Both the position numbers and the translations under genes were made by a program. Of a DNA stretch of 64,000 nt, positions 7,420-14,345 are shown in pieces. This DNA is from Peredibacter starrii (GTDB lineage: Bacteria > Bdellovibrionota > Bacteriovoracia > Bacteriovoracales > Bacteriovoracaceae): assembly GCF_034259205.1 (NCBI RefSeq), contig NZ_CP139487.1:1116001-1180000 (forward strand), written 5' to 3'. The stretch's first letter is position 1. Each line of letters opens with the position of its first letter. Under the pieces are notes generated by a model. The model was given only the letters and a program-made list of their open reading frames with translations, had not been told where the DNA came from and ran no database searches.

Positions 7420-7427
7420 GAATGAAT

Positions 7428-8774
7428 ATGAAATATCTATTAGTCGGTTTATTAGTTGCCTCAAGTGCCTTTGCTAAAGACTCTTTCCTTGATTCGGTAA
7501 AACGAATGAAGTGGGGAGACTTGGATGTGGTCTGGATCAAAGACGACCATTTCCCGAAGTTTACCGCTTCGATTTATTTCCAGGACGGCGCTCTTAATGA
7601 TTCATTCCCTGGCGTGACTCAATCGACTTTCGATCAGATCGCGGCCGGAACTAAGACCCAGAACCAAAGAGAGATCGCAGAATACTTCGATTTCTATGGT
7701 GCGAATCTTCGTCACTCAGTAACTCACGAATACTCAGTATATAGCGTGCAGGCCCTGACAAAAGACATTAAACCAGTGATGGGGAAGGTATGTGAGATCT
7801 TTAGCGATGCTCAATATCCTAAGAATGAACTTAATTCCTACATCAGCCGTTCAAAGAGTAACCTGAAGAACCTTGTGACTTCACACGCTGCTTTGGCAGA
7901 TAGAATTTTCAGACGTGTTTCTCTGGATGAGACGGTTTATTCTCAGCCAGTCGAAGGCACGATCGCGAGCTTTGATAAATTAAACTCTGAGCTATTAAAA
8001 AGTCGTCTGGCGACACTTAATAAGACGAAGAAAGTTTTATACCTAGCGGGCCCGGAGGAAGTGAAAGATATCCGTGACGTTATTGAAAAAAACTGTCGCT
8101 GGAAAAACGAAACGAAATCAACGCCGATTACTTTGAAGAAACCTTCATCACAGTCAGCGATCTATCTGGTAGAAGTTCCAAACGCTAACCAGGCCCAGAT
8201 TCGCATTGGCCGTTATATGACGAACCAGGAATTCGCGAAGAAGTATGATCAGTTTGGTTTTATGGCCGGCTTCATGGGCGGTGGTTTCACTTCTAAACTT
8301 GTGCAAGAACTACGTGTGAAAAGAGGTCTGACTTATTCGGCGGGAGCGTATGTGTCTCTTCAAAGAGATTATGGCCGCGCAGGAGTGATGACTTTCTCAA
8401 AGAATGAAACAACCGCTGATGCCATCGGTATCATCCGTGATGTTTTCGCCGATGTTGCCCAAGGTAAGTTTGAAGAAAAAGAATTTCAACATCAGAAAAA
8501 TCACCAAATCGGTGGATATGCTTTTGGTTTCGAAGAAACGAATGCTTTCCTCGGTCAGTTAATGCTTCTTGATCACCAGGGCAGAGAGTTTAAAGATCTT
8601 GTAAATTTCCCGACAACAATCAGTAAACTGACTCCATCAGAACTTTCTCAAGCTGATTTTGAGGCGTTCCCTTGGGAGAGACTTACAATTGTAGTGGTAG
8701 GGGACAAGAGTCTGGCGAAGAGCCTATCGCGCATTCGCCCGGTGAAGATCCTGAATTACGAAGATTATCTCTAG
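7428..8774 (+). CDS. M16-family protein without zinc motif (partner subunit)
   Basis: A 448-residue secreted protein with signal peptide MKYLLVGLLVASSAFAKD. The fold follows M16 peptidases, with GGFTSKLVQELRVKRGLTYSAGA in the C-terminal half as the family's R/Y substrate-binding region, but the HxxEH motif is absent from the N-terminal half. It is therefore expected to be the non-catalytic half of a heterodimer with the upstream lipoprotein. I prefer ATG 7428 because AGGA lies six bases upstream; an ATG at 7422 is too close to that site. Its stop lies one base from the convergent bactofilin stop. Confidence 0.85.
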   Translation: MKYLLVGLLVASSAFAKDSFLDSVKRMKWGDLDVVWIKDDHFPKFTASIYFQDGALNDSFPGVTQSTFDQIAAGTKTQNQREIAEYFDFYGANLRHSVTHEYSVYSVQALTKDIKPVMGKVCEIFSDAQYPKNELNSYISRSKSNLKNLVTSHAALADRIFRRVSLDETVYSQPVEGTIASFDKLNSELLKSRLATLNKTKKVLYLAGPEEVKDIRDVIEKNCRWKNETKSTPITLKKPSSQSAIYLVEVPNANQAQIRIGRYMTNQEFAKKYDQFGFMAGFMGGGFTSKLVQELRVKRGLTYSAGAYVSLQRDYGRAGVMTFSKNETTADAIGIIRDVFADVAQGKFEEKEFQHQKNHQIGGYAFGFEETNAFLGQLMLLDHQGREFKDLVNFPTTISKLTPSELSQADFEAFPWERLTIVVVGDKSLAKSLSRIRPVKILNYEDYL

Positions 8775-8775
8775 A

Positions 8776-9129
8776 TTAAGTTTGGTCCTGGGAGCTGGCG
8801 TTCATTTCAACGACGGCCCCAGGATAAATCACGAGACGCCCTGATTTAATAGATCCTGTTACAACCGCACTTGAACGAATCGAAACCAATCCCGAACATT
8901 CAATATCACCTTCAACCTGACCGAAGATTTCAAGATCGATGGCCTTGATTTTGCCTTTTACGAAACTTCCACGCTCGAGCACCAGTTTCCCAGTGTCTTT
9001 GATTTCAATGCTGCCTTCGATACTTGAATTGATGATGGCGTCGCCGGCAAGAATGATGTCACCGTTGATACGAGTCTTGGCACCAAAAACGTTATAATGA
9101 AAATCTTTGAAGTCTTGATCATTGATCAC
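8776..9129 (-). CDS. Bactofilin (CcmA-like polymer-forming cytoskeletal protein)
   Basis: A 117-residue protein made almost entirely of short right-handed beta-helix turns with the rhythm 'G.I...D.II...IEGSIEIKDTGKLVLERGSFVKGKI', flanked by short polar tails. This is the bactofilin fold, which assembles nucleotide-independent filaments at the membrane. In Helicobacter pylori the bactofilin CcmA helps set helical shape. Its start overlaps the stop of the upstream membrane-protein gene by four bases, and the gene before that encodes an LD-carboxypeptidase of the shape-determining type, so a cell-shape role is likely. Confidence 0.85.
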   Translation of the reverse strand: MINDQDFKDFHYNVFGAKTRINGDIILAGDAIINSSIEGSIEIKDTGKLVLERGSFVKGKIKAIDLEIFGQVEGDIECSGLVSIRSSAVVTGSIKSGRLVIYPGAVVEMNASSQDQT

Positions 9130-9869
9130 GATTTGGCCCCTACTTTAAATGACTCTGTCTCACGAATGAGGAGAAGGTCGCCTTCACGATTAAAAATGTA
9201 GATCACAAACTTAACCGATTGGCCGGTAAGTTGGGTCCTGAATTCTGCATTTGTTGGACGTAGGCGAGACACCGAGAACGGTTCACCCGTTGAATATTTA
9301 ATCCCTTGAGTGATAAGAGCGTTCGCTCTTTCCGGATAGGCCATAAGTCCATTTTCAGACATCATGAACACCAACACGTGACCGGTCACTTTTGTTTCCG
9401 GAGAAGCACTCATGATCACAAATTTAAATGAAACTTTGCCCGCTTCCTGTACCATCGAAAATTGATCGAGGTTCACTTTGTTTTGACTTAGAAGGTTCTG
9501 CATCCCATAGGGCTTTTTGATCGCCATGAGATAAGGGTCTTCCGGAGTCGCAGTCGCCGGTTGGCCTGAAAGCTTCTCGGCCAATTGATTGTTACTTTCC
9601 TGAAGGGATTTGATCTCTGCTTGAAGCTCGGCCACTTTACTGTCTTCCGCCGGCAGAACTTCCGGAAGAGTGGGAGTTGGGACGTGCTTAATTCTACTTC
9701 CAAGACCCCAGCTGAAAATCAGCAGAAACGAGGCCACCAGAACTACTGGTACAACGACAAAAAGTGTTTTGATGAATCTTTTAGTGAGGCGGAAGTATTT
9801 TGGGGGAAGGGGAGCATCGTAGATAACGATCGCGACCTCATCCCCATTTTTTTGAATGAATTCCTTCAT
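9126..9869 (-). CDS. Single-pass membrane coiled-coil protein, possible bactofilin partner
   Basis: A 247-residue protein with a cytoplasmic head of about 35 residues, one membrane segment (LFVVVPVVLVASFLLIFSW), a heptad-like coiled coil (KVAELQAEIKSLQESNNQLAEKL) and a periplasmic beta-rich C-terminal domain. The N-terminal half resembles the membrane anchor of M23 peptidases next to bactofilins, but no peptidase motif is present. It lies between an LD-carboxypeptidase gene (five bases upstream) and the bactofilin gene (four-base overlap). By analogy with H. pylori Csd5/Csd7 it may link cytoplasmic bactofilin to periplasmic wall enzymes; this is inference from position and topology. Confidence 0.7.
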   Translation of the reverse strand: MKEFIQKNGDEVAIVIYDAPLPPKYFRLTKRFIKTLFVVVPVVLVASFLLIFSWGLGSRIKHVPTPTLPEVLPAEDSKVAELQAEIKSLQESNNQLAEKLSGQPATATPEDPYLMAIKKPYGMQNLLSQNKVNLDQFSMVQEAGKVSFKFVIMSASPETKVTGHVLVFMMSENGLMAYPERANALITQGIKYSTGEPFSVSRLRPTNAEFRTQLTGQSVKFVIYIFNREGDLLLIRETESFKVGAKS

Positions 9870-9874
9870 GAGTC

Positions 9875-10858
9875 CTATTCTTTAAAGAAACGCTTAGAAG
9901 GAGTGAAGGAGGCGACGCTTTTTGAATCCACTGCCGACCATAGTTCACCCACGATTTTCCAGTCGTAGTTATTATCTTTCTGAAGATATAGGGTCTTTTT
10001 ACCAATGTCATTAATTACTGGCGAACGGTAGTCTTGTTGTAAATGAACAACCGCATAATCTTCGTTGGCCATGATTGAAATGAAGTCCAATTTGATCTCA
10101 GGAGAGTCCGCACGAGAGAAAACGGCCTTTTTATAGTTTTTGTAACCGTTGTATCCACCGTGTTTCTTATCGTAGAAGCGCTCTTTATCGTAACTATTGA
10201 TGTAGTTATCGAAGTCTTTAGTCTTCCAGGCAGTTGCCCACTTTTGAACCGCATCGTTGATGTCTTTACGGTTTCTTTCCCAAGTTGTTTTTGAAAGGAA
10301 GTGAACGTCTTGAACCACGATGATCGGAGTGTTGTTAAGTTCGATGAATTGAGAGATGTCTTTTAGATCTTGGTTCTGAACAACGACGCAGCCTCTTGAG
10401 TCCAGACCCTTAGAGATGCGGTTATCGTCATCAGTAGAGTGAAGCCAGATTCCTCCGCCAGTTTTCTTAGCACGCTCATCGATAAAGTTCGGGTAGTCCA
10501 TCGGGAAAGCACCACTGCCGTAAATCTTGGCGTAGTTTCCGTGGCGACGGAAAAGTTCATCTTTCGAGTAGAAGTCATAGATCGTGTAGATCCCTTCTGG
10601 AGTTTTGTGATCCCCGTTGCTCGCCTTATCACCTTTTGTCTTACCAGTGGCCATATTAAAGGTCTTCACTAGTCTTGGTTCAGTGGCAGCGTTCTCATAA
10701 ATATGAAGTTTATGAGTGGCCTTTTCCACTAAGATCACGTGGTGGGCGAACTTATCGTCCATCATCATAATGTTAGAGGGATAAAAGATATCCTGGGCCT
10801 TGGCCAGACCGACAGAAATAGTCAACATCATCAAAGTAATGAATTTAAAATTTTTCAA
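9875..10858 (-). CDS. Periplasmic YkuD-fold LD-carboxypeptidase with NTF2-like domain (Csd6/Pgp2/Bd1075 type)
   Basis: From a TTG start the protein is 327 residues: signal peptide (MKNFKFITLMMLTISVGLAKA), a YkuD catalytic domain and a C-terminal NTF2-like domain (from about WATAWKTKDFDNYINSYD). The catalytic motif has His near residue 140 (GGIWLHSTDD) and Cys near 157 in SRGCVVV. This architecture is that of H. pylori Csd6, Campylobacter Pgp2 and Bdellovibrio Bd1075, which trim peptidoglycan tetrapeptides to tripeptides and set cell curvature. The TTG is chosen because GGAGG lies four bases upstream and because it gives a proper signal peptide. An ordinary LD-transpeptidase remains possible. 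Confidence 0.85.
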   Translation of the reverse strand: MKNFKFITLMMLTISVGLAKAQDIFYPSNIMMMDDKFAHHVILVEKATHKLHIYENAATEPRLVKTFNMATGKTKGDKASNGDHKTPEGIYTIYDFYSKDELFRRHGNYAKIYGSGAFPMDYPNFIDERAKKTGGGIWLHSTDDDNRISKGLDSRGCVVVQNQDLKDISQFIELNNTPIIVVQDVHFLSKTTWERNRKDINDAVQKWATAWKTKDFDNYINSYDKERFYDKKHGGYNGYKNYKKAVFSRADSPEIKLDFISIMANEDYAVVHLQQDYRSPVINDIGKKTLYLQKDNNYDWKIVGELWSAVDSKSVASFTPSKRFFKE

Positions 10859-10998
10859 GAATCCTCCACAGAGACAATTCGATTGTATTATGAGCCAAAA
10901 AAGGACGCAATAAAGATATCTATTAGGAGCAGCAATCTTTGCCCCCTCGGAGACTGGGGAACCCATAAGATATGATGGAATGTAGAAGGTAAAGCATA

Positions 10999-13008
10999 AT
11001 GACCTACTATTTCATCAGCGGGGCCCCGGAGAAACTCAGAGAATTTCTGAATCGGTTTCCTATGCTCTCCGACGCCGTTGAAGTTAAGACCAATGAACAG
11101 ATTCTCAGCGAAGAAGGTAGTAAGGACATTTTTTATTTCGTAGATTTGCATTCACTACCTGTAGTTAAGCAAGCTCTGGTGTTCTATATCCGCGAGAAAA
11201 TCCCGGCCGCAAAGTTGATCTATGTGACCGGAGATGAGAATGCTTCAGACTTAAAAAACCATCAAAAGTCTCCGATTGGTGGAGACGCCTATGTTCCATT
11301 TGAAATCAATGCCTCTGAGTTGAACGCAATAGTTGAGTCTCTGGCGTTGAAACCTCCTGCGCTTCCTAAGGTCGCTCCGGTGAAATTAAGTCGCCTGGAT
11401 ATGAAGACCCAATTTGATGATCTTGAAAAACTCGATGCCATGAAAGGCCATCCGGTGAGTGTCCAGGTTGATGATGTCTTTAAGAGCATCATTAAAACCG
11501 CCGCCAAAAAGCCATTGTGGCAGAGTGCTGAAGCTTTAATTAAACCAGTTGAAAATAATGATTCGGGAGAAGAACCCATGAGTACGAAAGACCAAGAACT
11601 GTCATTCGATGACGGTGAGCTTGAGATCAGTATTGGAGACGAGGAAATCTCCTCGGCGCCGGCTGATGATGGTCTGGATTTAAGTCTGGCAGAAGAGGAC
11701 AGTCTCTCATTAAGTGACGGATCAGATGATCTGAACCTTGCTGAATCCTCTGATCAAGAGCAGTTTGGAGATCTTTCTTTGGACACTGAAGAAGGCGAGG
11801 AGCTTTCCCTTGGTGAAGAAGAAGAGGGCGAAGAACTGTCACTCGGCGATGATGAAGGTGAGGAACTTTCTCTTGGTGATGAAGAGCCATTGGAAAATAT
11901 CGGTGAACTTTCTTTTGATGAAGAAATTCCTGCATTGGGTGAATTGAGCCTTGCCGAGGAACCCGCTGCAGATGATTTGAGTCTTAGCGGTGACGTTGGT
12001 CTGGATCTCGGTGATGATGATCTCTCGTTGAATCTAGGTGATGAAGATGCTTCGCTTGATCTCTCTGGCAATGATGAACCTTCTCTCTCTCTAGATGATG
12101 GCGAGATGTCGGACGACGCCATGGCGAAGTTAAAAGAAATCGACGCCATCATGGATTACGATGCCTCACAGGTCGCGATCCGTGCCAATCCACTTCAGGA
12201 GCTGGAATCATCAATCGATGAGCCGCTGGTTTCCGACGATATCAATCTTGATAACATCAACTTTTCTTCTGACGAGGTCGGCCTTGAACCAGAAGAGGAA
12301 GAGATTGAAGAAAAACCAAAGAAAAAGAAACGCGAGCCTGCTCCACGAGAGGCCCGTGATCTTGGTCAGGATTTAAAGGAAATCTCTGGAGCTTATTCAG
12401 GGGAAATGGAGCGCATGCAGGCCACCATTTCAAACCTCCGTTCTGATCGTGAAGAGCTACTAGCAAAGATTCAGAAGCTTGAAGAGGACAAAGTGCTCCA
12501 AAGCCGCCAGAGTCTTTCACTTCGCGCCGAACTTGATGAGAAGAAAATTGAACTAACGATCATCCGTAAGAAGTTAAACGAAGAGATCAATGAGCTCAAA
12601 GACAGACTGAAGCTCTTTGATGAGAAAAGACTCATCATTGAAGAGAAGAATAGAATTCTTGCGCAAGAGCTTGATAAAGCTGCGCAAAAGAATAAAATTG
12701 ATGTGAAAAAAGTGCAAATGCGCGAAAGAGAACTGGAACAACGTCTGGAGCTCTTGAAGGCAGATGCAGAAACTCAAATCAGACACCGCGACCTGAAGAT
12801 CTTGGAGCTTAAGCGTAAGATTGATGCTATGGAGTTTGATATGGAGTCCATCTCAACGCAAGAGAAGCGTTCTGTGGAAAGCCGATTTGAGTTGGAAGAT
12901 AAATTAGAAAAGGCCATCAAGACTCTTCGAAATGCTATTACAGTCCTCGAAGATGAAACTGATCGCACCAATGCATTGGATGCATTGAAGAAAAACATAG
13001 ACATGTAA
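10999..13008 (+). CDS. Pseudo-receiver protein with acidic LSL repeats and long coiled coil
   Basis: A 669-residue cytoplasmic protein in three parts. Residues 1-120 resemble a response-regulator receiver domain without the N-terminal acidic pair. Residues 190-380 are a very acidic low-complexity stretch built on some fifteen repeats of the pattern (E/D)LSLxxx. From about residue 460 a charged coiled coil runs to the end. The layout recalls the myxobacterial motility proteins FrzS and AglZ (receiver-like head plus coiled coil), but sequence identity cannot be judged here. Its TAA overlaps the ATG of the diguanylate cyclase (TAATG), so the two products are probably made together and may form one complex. 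Confidence 0.7.
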   Translation: MTYYFISGAPEKLREFLNRFPMLSDAVEVKTNEQILSEEGSKDIFYFVDLHSLPVVKQALVFYIREKIPAAKLIYVTGDENASDLKNHQKSPIGGDAYVPFEINASELNAIVESLALKPPALPKVAPVKLSRLDMKTQFDDLEKLDAMKGHPVSVQVDDVFKSIIKTAAKKPLWQSAEALIKPVENNDSGEEPMSTKDQELSFDDGELEISIGDEEISSAPADDGLDLSLAEEDSLSLSDGSDDLNLAESSDQEQFGDLSLDTEEGEELSLGEEEEGEELSLGDDEGEELSLGDEEPLENIGELSFDEEIPALGELSLAEEPAADDLSLSGDVGLDLGDDDLSLNLGDEDASLDLSGNDEPSLSLDDGEMSDDAMAKLKEIDAIMDYDASQVAIRANPLQELESSIDEPLVSDDINLDNINFSSDEVGLEPEEEEIEEKPKKKKREPAPREARDLGQDLKEISGAYSGEMERMQATISNLRSDREELLAKIQKLEEDKVLQSRQSLSLRAELDEKKIELTIIRKKLNEEINELKDRLKLFDEKRLIIEEKNRILAQELDKAAQKNKIDVKKVQMRERELEQRLELLKADAETQIRHRDLKILELKRKIDAMEFDMESISTQEKRSVESRFELEDKLEKAIKTLRNAITVLEDETDRTNALDALKKNIDM

Positions 13009-14345
13009 TGAACAAAAAAGAAGATCAGTTAGAAATTCTGGCCATTGGTTTAGACTCGTTTTCGATCGAGGCAATCAAGAAGTCCCTGAAAGAGAACAAG
13101 CTGAAGTATCACATCAGCTTCCTTCAGGACGTCGCCGATTTAACTGGCTTCGCCAAGAGAAATGCTGCTCAGGCAGTGTTCTTCTATTCTAACCGCCAAA
13201 GCCAAAAGACCGTGGACGACATCCGCCGGATTCACCAGTTGATTCCTCGCGCTGCCATTACACTTCTTTCACCACGTGCCGAACAAAGCGGGATCGTAGG
13301 CGCTTTCCGTGCGGGCCTTTTTGATTTCCTCACTCTTCCTATTGATCAACATGAAATGCGCACAGTAATTTACCGCTTAAAACTTCATGGTGCCATCCAA
13401 AGTGGCCAGTGGAACCCAGAGCGCGCAGTTCTGCACTTGTTTTCACGTCCGGAGAGCTTCACTGCCATTCGTGATGTGGCCGCGGGCCTTGATCAATACA
13501 TGGGCCTTTTCTTTGAAGTAGAGAAGGAGATTCACTTCACTTCGAGTCTCAAAATCATTACCTCACTTCAACAAAAGCTAAAACTCACTGAACATCAGTT
13601 GAAACGCATTAAGCGCTTCCTCTTTGATGATACAGGACTTATCTTTGGCCTTCGTTTTGTGAATGACCGCTTCTACTTCCTAGTTAAAAGAGGAGACGGC
13701 CAACTTTCATACCTCGTGGCCCGAAATATTTCAGAATATTCAATCAAAGACATCCTCAGTGATTATCTTTCAAACGTTCTGAAAACTTCTCTCTCAATTC
13801 TCGCCGAGTCTCGCAAGCGCGAGGCCATGCGTATGCTTTCACTTACAGACGAAGTCACCGGTCTTTTCAATCAGCGTAAGCTCATCGAAGACCTTGAGCT
13901 CTATATTGCTCGCTACCAGCACGATAAAATGGGCTTTAGCCTCCTGTTTGTTGATATCGATTACTTCAAAAACGTGAACGATCAGTTTGGCCACGTGGTT
14001 GGCAGCCAACTCTTAATCGATATGGCCGCTATTTTAAAAGGTCAGCTTCGCTCTTCCGATCTCGTCTACCGTTACGGCGGAGATGAATTCATCGTCCTAC
14101 TTCCACGCACGAGTGTCGAAGAAACGAAGAAGATTGCCCTTCGTGTTTCTGAAGCAGTTAAAAACGCGGAATTCGTTGTCGATAATGACAAAAAATATCG
14201 CCTCTCACTTTCTATCGGTGTGGCCGAATTCCCAACTGATGCAACTAGCGCCAAGTCCATCATCGATTTCGCAGATAAGATGATGTACATGTCTAAGAAG
14301 TCAGGTCGCGGGAAAGTTTTCCACGTTACCGAGGTTGTGGCCTAG
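13008..14345 (+). CDS. Diguanylate cyclase with degenerate receiver domain
   Basis: A 445-residue protein that should make cyclic di-GMP from two GTP. The first 130 residues follow the receiver fold, but the phospho-acceptor strand reads AVFFYSN without Asp and the switch Lys is replaced (LTLPI), so it is not expected to be phosphorylated. A middle region of unknown fold follows. The GGDEF domain is complete: VDIDYFKNVND, the inhibitory site RSSD, then GGDEF five residues later. An intact active site and RxxD feedback site suggest a regulated, active enzyme. It is translationally coupled to the upstream coiled-coil protein, which may localise it. Confidence 0.92.
   Translation: MNKKEDQLEILAIGLDSFSIEAIKKSLKENKLKYHISFLQDVADLTGFAKRNAAQAVFFYSNRQSQKTVDDIRRIHQLIPRAAITLLSPRAEQSGIVGAFRAGLFDFLTLPIDQHEMRTVIYRLKLHGAIQSGQWNPERAVLHLFSRPESFTAIRDVAAGLDQYMGLFFEVEKEIHFTSSLKIITSLQQKLKLTEHQLKRIKRFLFDDTGLIFGLRFVNDRFYFLVKRGDGQLSYLVARNISEYSIKDILSDYLSNVLKTSLSILAESRKREAMRMLSLTDEVTGLFNQRKLIEDLELYIARYQHDKMGFSLLFVDIDYFKNVNDQFGHVVGSQLLIDMAAILKGQLRSSDLVYRYGGDEFIVLLPRTSVEETKKIALRVSEAVKNAEFVVDNDKKYRLSLSIGVAEFPTDATSAKSIIDFADKMMYMSKKSGRGKVFHVTEVVA

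Follow-up and report, generated by a model that had tools for sequence, protein, structure and literature searches.

A conserved operon of Bacteriovoracia encoding an LD-carboxypeptidase, a bitopic membrane protein and a bactofilin is a candidate three-compartment cell-shape module

Three adjacent minus-strand genes of Peredibacter starrii, lying in a 64,000-nucleotide stretch of contig NZ_CP139487.1 (positions 1,116,001 to 1,180,000; here called the window and numbered from its first letter), encode a secreted LD-carboxypeptidase (LDT; gene ldt), a membrane protein with a single predicted membrane helix (mid) and a bactofilin, and are transcribed in the order ldt, mid, bactofilin. This order is kept almost without exception through the class Bacteriovoracia and is lost as a block in one genus. 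We regard it as highly probable that the three products act in one shape process; whether they constitute a three-compartment cell-shape module of Bacteriovoracia, in which mid docked on the bactofilin filament directs LDT, we judge to be evenly balanced.

Layout of the operon

A sequence-only reading of this DNA had placed the three genes here with a gap of 5 nt between ldt and mid and an overlap of 4 nt between mid and bactofilin, and the coordinates of the open reading frames (ORFs) confirm this; the overlap reads GTGA. A ribosome-site-like AGGA 5' of mid overlaps the ldt stop. The ldt start is taken as the TTG at 10858, which has GGAGG five bases upstream, although the table-11 ORF reaches 10966; mid starts with ATG and the bactofilin gene with GTG. 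The features of the operon are as follows.

9875 to 10858, minus strand: ldt, secreted LD-carboxypeptidase of the Bd1075/Csd6/Pgp2 type, 327 amino acids from the TTG (PF03734, PF24125, phmmer, AlphaFold2 (AF2) model)
10796 to 10858, minus strand: predicted signal peptide of LDT, MKNFKFITLMMLTISVGLAKA followed by QD (sequence reading; homologues also begin with a hydrophobic leader)
10316 to 10741, minus strand: YkuD catalytic domain of LDT, with His140 and the catalytic Cys157 (codon 10388-10390) (Pfam; both residues kept in 23 of 23 sampled operon LDTs)
9944 to 10261, minus strand: NTF2-like Cds6_C domain of LDT, with pocket residues Y277 and W307 (Y274 and W303 in Bd1075) (Pfam, residue alignment)
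9126 to 9869, minus strand: mid, bitopic membrane protein of 247 amino acids, no Pfam family (AF2 model, Pfam scan, mid matches in relatives)
9783 to 9839, minus strand: predicted cytoplasmic beta-hairpin of mid, residues 11-29, the proposed bactofilin-binding element (AF2 strands 11-16 and 24-29; conservation)
9687 to 9782, minus strand: predicted membrane helix of mid, residues 30-61 (AF2; hydropathy maximum at 35-53)
9567 to 9650, minus strand: predicted coiled coil of mid, residues 74-101 (AF2; lowest conservation)
9159 to 9476, minus strand: predicted periplasmic immunoglobulin (Ig)-like beta-sandwich of mid, residues 132-237 (AF2; structural comparison)
8776 to 9129, minus strand: bactofilin, 117 amino acids, core 14-108 (PF04519, E 8.2e-20)

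Gene order within Bacteriovoracia

A match to mid was found in 114 of the 129 genomes of the class, and in 70 of the 73 good ones. Gene order was read in two independently picked sets, 80 fetched loci chosen by mid and 80 named loci chosen by ldt. Of the 80 loci in the first set, 79 have the three genes in one order and on one strand; ldt and the bactofilin gene are each seen in 79, the missing members fall at contig ends, and every locus of sufficient length keeps the order. In the second set all three genes were present in 74 of the 76 readable loci, four more being cut by contig ends. Throughout the sampled loci the genes overlap or nearly do so, and because the same arrangement is found even where mid proteins are as little as about 20% identical, chance can be excluded as its cause.

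The genus g41 provides the complementary observation. In three of its genomes (L307, L308 and L309) the flanking M16-M16-coiled-coil genes are contiguous and ldt, mid and bactofilin are gone; a search of two of these genomes, G103 and G106 (98-99% complete), found no bactofilin and no Cds6_C protein, and the genus appears to be without any bactofilin, while MreB is kept. That the block is missing while its flanks are intact speaks for a single functional unit.

LDT is a Bd1075-type enzyme

The assignment of the first gene to the Csd6/Pgp2/Bd1075 type, already made from the sequence, was upheld by Pfam, phmmer, key residues and structural modelling. LDT has a YkuD domain (PF03734, E 4e-18) followed by an NTF2-like Cds6_C domain (PF24125, E 3e-18); its closest solved relative is Bd1075 (7o21, phmmer E 2.4e-47), with Pgp2 and Csd6 next. 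The AF2 model (predicted local distance difference test score, pLDDT, 89) matches Bd1075 7o21 with Z 31.4 and a root-mean-square deviation of 2.0 over 266 residues, Csd6 4xzz with Z 24.5 and Pgp2 6xj7 with Z 24.6. The window enzyme carries H140, C157, V159 and Y277; in Bd1075 numbering, His141, Cys156, the unusual non-Arg pocket residue V158 and pocket Y274 are unchanged in all 23 operon enzymes sampled, and the equivalent of the targeting residue W303 is W in 18 and F in five of them, unlike most other families of the phylum, where this position is variable. In the LDT tree the enzymes encoded in the operon fall into a single group, whose base has modest support. By sequence and predicted structure LDT is thus a Csd6/Pgp2/Bd1075-type enzyme and, as its domains, its structural match to Bd1075 and its key residues are all intact, by analogy it is very likely an active LD-carboxypeptidase that converts tetrapeptides to tripeptides.

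Bd1075 bends Bdellovibrio bacteriovorus cells and localises via its NTF2 domain and W303 (PMC8938487). It shares with the window enzyme the YkuD-NTF2 architecture, the catalytic residues, V158, Y274 and, mostly, W303. The two differ in setting, bd1075 being described as monocistronic (PMC8938487) in an organism with no mid match and one bactofilin, whereas the window ldt lies in an operon. The P. starrii genome (4.15 Mb, one contig) encodes one Cds6_C protein, the ldt product, and two bactofilins.

The identification of the third gene as a bactofilin also stood (PF04519, E 8.2e-20, residues 14-108 of 117, a core with short tails). The second bactofilin of the genome (5462-5797 of locus L115; about 245961-246296 of contig G000:C1) is preceded by parA-parB and followed by ATP synthase genes, a setting that recalls the Myxococcus bactofilin-ParABS link (PMC5703909); because of this parA-parB-atp location it was set aside as a member of the system.

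The middle protein resembles a bactofilin-docking tail

The middle gene product had been described as a single-pass coiled-coil protein. The single membrane helix is supported by the AF2 model (57 aligned sequences, pLDDT 86.5), but the coiled coil is weak and is the least conserved segment. The model places a hairpin (11-29) directly before the membrane helix (30-61), then a helix that could form a coiled coil (74-101) and, last, a sandwich (132-237). Mean information content is highest in the hairpin (2.0 bits), followed by the sandwich (1.7), the membrane helix (1.26) and the coiled coil (1.15). Mid is therefore not mainly a coiled-coil protein; its conserved parts are the hairpin and the Ig-like domain. 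The N-terminal side of the membrane helix is rich in lysine and arginine, and for this reason the hairpin and N terminus should be cytoplasmic.

Structural comparison of the sandwich gave Z up to 10.1 against Ig-like domains of GH2 enzymes and 9.6 against WxLIP, values that identify the fold without assigning a function. No credible Pfam relation was found for the window mid and 27 diverse relatives at E up to 5, and the same proteins had no Pfam match to a hydrolase (M23) domain, the model showing an Ig-like sandwich at that place. The mid profile retrieved only coiled-coil noise from the solved structures. DUF6776, a bactofilin neighbour of similar pattern, was absent from the Pfam matches of mid and is not claimed as a relative. 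In the literature searched, mostly outside subscription journals, neither this operon nor the mid family was found described, and the top-ranked literature on Bacteriovorax, Halobacteriovorax and Peredibacter contained no mention of bactofilin; as far as Pfam and these searches show, the mid family is undescribed.

The closest precedent in construction is the LmdC-BacA pair of Hyphomonas and Rhodospirillum (PMC10945521). The cytoplasmic tail of LmdC (residues 1-38) binds the bactofilin BacA with a dissociation constant of about 15 uM and needs a conserved beta-hairpin to do so (PMC10945521). In both systems the gene for a bitopic protein adjoins that for a bactofilin and the protein comprises a hairpin, a membrane helix and a coiled coil; the proposed mid module is also taken to share with LmdC-BacA the modification of the wall at a site defined by curvature (PMC10945521). 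In its predicted model mid has the LmdC-type layout of a hairpin directly before a single membrane helix and then a coiled coil, encoded beside a bactofilin. LmdC, however, ends in an M23 endopeptidase, whereas mid ends in an Ig-like domain and the hydrolase is a separate, secreted LD-carboxypeptidase. In the model the N-terminal part of mid looks built like the LmdC tail, although common descent is not claimed. The anatomy and the LmdC precedent together give good support to mid as a bactofilin-docked membrane adaptor, and by analogy mid probably binds bactofilin through its hairpin.

The published 38-amino-acid LmdC peptide found no usable match as a query for LmdC relatives on plasmids; bactofilin neighbours on plasmids were an M23 protein with LysM domains in Leptospira and a bactofilin pair in Halomonas, neither with a mid-like gene; and M23 proteins of the window genome and its relatives gave no significant match to the mid hairpin, in a crude ORF scan that missed some M23 starts.

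Two further systems offer partial likenesses. In Helicobacter pylori a bactofilin (CcmA), non-enzymatic transmembrane proteins (Csd5, Csd7) and a peptidoglycan carboxypeptidase (Csd6) all shape the helix (PMC9507126), although no homology of Csd5 or Csd7 with mid is claimed. In Campylobacter jejuni the bactofilin gene 1104 overlaps the gene for the coiled-coil membrane protein 1105 (PMC10151779), and Pgp2 is homologous to the window LDT; there, however, the bactofilin partner is an M23 peptidase and the pair includes no LDT gene.

Proposed mechanism and competing explanations

Drawing on other bactofilins, we suggest that filaments of the operon bactofilin would line the inner face of the membrane at a curvature-defined site. 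Given its anatomy and conservation, mid would dock on them via its cytoplasmic hairpin in the manner of LmdC and BacA, and its Ig-like domain would relay the position of the filament across the membrane into the periplasm. There the domain may concentrate or license the co-produced LDT, either directly or by marking the wall. Bacteriovoracia are vibrioid cells, and local trimming of tetrapeptides to tripeptides, if the chemistry is that of Bd1075, would fix their bend. The parts of this scheme are held with unequal confidence: curvature is the outcome that we favour for the operon, with less assurance than the hairpin contact, and although mid could plausibly connect physically to the enzyme, that it positions or licenses LDT directly can be put forward only tentatively.

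Several results weigh against the scheme. Set against the mid hairpin, the 1-38 peptide of LmdC falls in register but scores a weak 3.8 bits, and 33 of 5000 shuffles scored as high or higher. Mean-field direct coupling analysis of mid against bactofilin or ldt had about 70-98 effective sequences and did not recover contacts within mid, which makes its cross-protein signals uninterpretable. Two of the ldt-chosen loci have an operon-type ldt with neither mid nor bactofilin beside it. Beyond the class, where the mid profile reaches other families of the phylum, all 20 loci examined have mid next to bactofilin, and most of them also have the divergent gene and the M16 pair, but only one has ldt inside the operon, the gene being elsewhere or absent in the other 19; the neighbourhood, which was to be compared across Bdellovibrionota, is therefore syntenic throughout Bacteriovoracia, but for ldt this does not extend to the whole phylum. 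Mid and bactofilin without an operon ldt across most of the phylum imply that mid has a function independent of ldt. Finally B. bacteriovorus, whose genome was recognised by its Bd1075 sequence, has bd1075, no mid match and a single bactofilin; as it is curved by Bd1075, enzyme-driven curvature is not universally dependent on mid.

The two lone operon-type ldt genes (L187, JAIXQO010000002.1; L188, JACMQW010000080.1) are 57-58% identical to that of the window. Besides this enzyme, the L187 genome (G350, family f8) encodes a second LDT, of native type, and at another site a mid-bactofilin pair of its own; a horizontal transfer of the enzyme alone into that genome is therefore likely, the alternative being an assembly mix-up.

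The out-of-class pairs without ldt, together with the Bdellovibrio enzyme without mid, show that mid-bactofilin is the older unit, that mid was not born as a dedicated enzyme adaptor and that the enzyme joined in, or before, Bacteriovoracia. In two still more distant families a hairpin-membrane-sandwich gene precedes the bactofilin gene, its resemblance to mid being judged by eye. In B. bacteriovorus, bd1075 lies near an M16 pair with one small gene between (L270, 3566-4564 and 5343-7999); this pair is related to the M16 genes flanking the Bacteriovoracia operon, and the arrangement is possibly a relic of a shared ancestral neighbourhood.

A different explanation sees in mid-bactofilin an old scaffold of the envelope that serves a separate purpose, the positioning of some other wall or surface machine; ldt would have joined for co-expression only, the enzyme targeting itself by its NTF2 domain, as in Bdellovibrio. 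The 19 of 20 loci without an operon ldt, and the many out-of-class genomes that encode LDT elsewhere, agree with it, as does the localisation of Bd1075 through NTF2/W303 without mid (PMC8938487), the same residue being kept in the operon LDTs. Against it stand a gene order that is near-exceptionless across numerous genera whose mid proteins are 20-25% identical, and the triple loss in g41; near-invariant order and joint loss point to a coupling stronger than co-expression alone usually leaves. We consider this explanation a serious but minority possibility.

Somewhat less likely still is that the Ig-like domain of mid binds peptidoglycan or an outer-membrane partner and so anchors the filament to the wall, the enzyme acting on the resulting patch without contact, as in a Csd5-like arrangement. 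Ig-like domains are a common binding fold, mid works elsewhere without a linked ldt, and in H. pylori the bactofilin CcmA is brought to the envelope by Csd5 (PMC9507126); no known wall-binding family, however, matched mid.

Flanking genes

The operon is flanked by the following features.

10859 to 10998, plus strand: divergent intergenic region of 140 bp, the expected location of the operon promoter (divergent arrangement conserved)
10999 to 13008, plus strand: divergent neighbour with a pseudo-receiver-like start, acidic ELSL repeats and a conserved C-terminal coiled coil; it belongs to the ancestral locus (ORF, Pfam, conserved synteny)
7422 to 8774, plus strand: convergent M16 peptidase, second of a pair and a conserved flank of the operon (ORF, Pfam, conserved synteny)

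The stop of the M16 gene lies 1 nt from that of the bactofilin gene. No consensus sigma-70 promoter 5' of ldt was found in the 140-bp region, counts there being at chance level. The 10999-13008 protein has no Pfam family and its C-terminal coiled coil is strongly conserved (RVRxDIRKIRxREKELExxLE...); the gene beyond it (13008-14345) encodes a GGDEF protein with a weak receiver-like start. This divergent pair accompanies mid-bactofilin across much of the phylum and may form one system with it, as the regulatory or polar half.

The regulatory look of the receiver/coiled-coil and GGDEF proteins would also suit a role of the operon outside cell shape, in polar or flagellar assembly or in prey invasion, and some bactofilins do act in motility or chromosome organisation (PMC4627819, PMC5703909). 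Against this, Csd6, Pgp2 and Bd1075 are all cell-shape determinants (PMC8938487), and we consider a non-shape role improbable.

Significance

The enzyme and the bactofilin each add a member to a family already known. Their combination with mid is a variant of the bactofilin-wall-enzyme module, in which a non-enzymatic adaptor and a separate LD-carboxypeptidase replace a single M23 protein, and it extends that module from M23 endopeptidases to an adaptor plus a separate enzyme. Mid may, tentatively, found a new family of non-enzymatic transmembrane adaptors, present through much of the phylum, that read a cytoplasmic bactofilin filament and present an Ig-like dock in the periplasm, and that captured a soluble LD-carboxypeptidase in Bacteriovoracia.

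The authors of the Bd1075 study stated that, to their knowledge, no mechanism was known by which a bacterial protein is targeted to one lateral wall (PMC8938487). Because enzyme, bitopic protein and filament are encoded together, this question of one-sided targeting can be put to one small operon, and whether an inner filament decides, through mid, the site of wall trimming is testable in Bacteriovoracia; natural comparisons are Bdellovibrio, with the enzyme and no mid, the other families, with the pair and no linked enzyme, and g41, with its triple loss. If the proposal is true, a filament-steered wall trimmer would explain what keeps a periplasmic enzyme to a single side of the cell.
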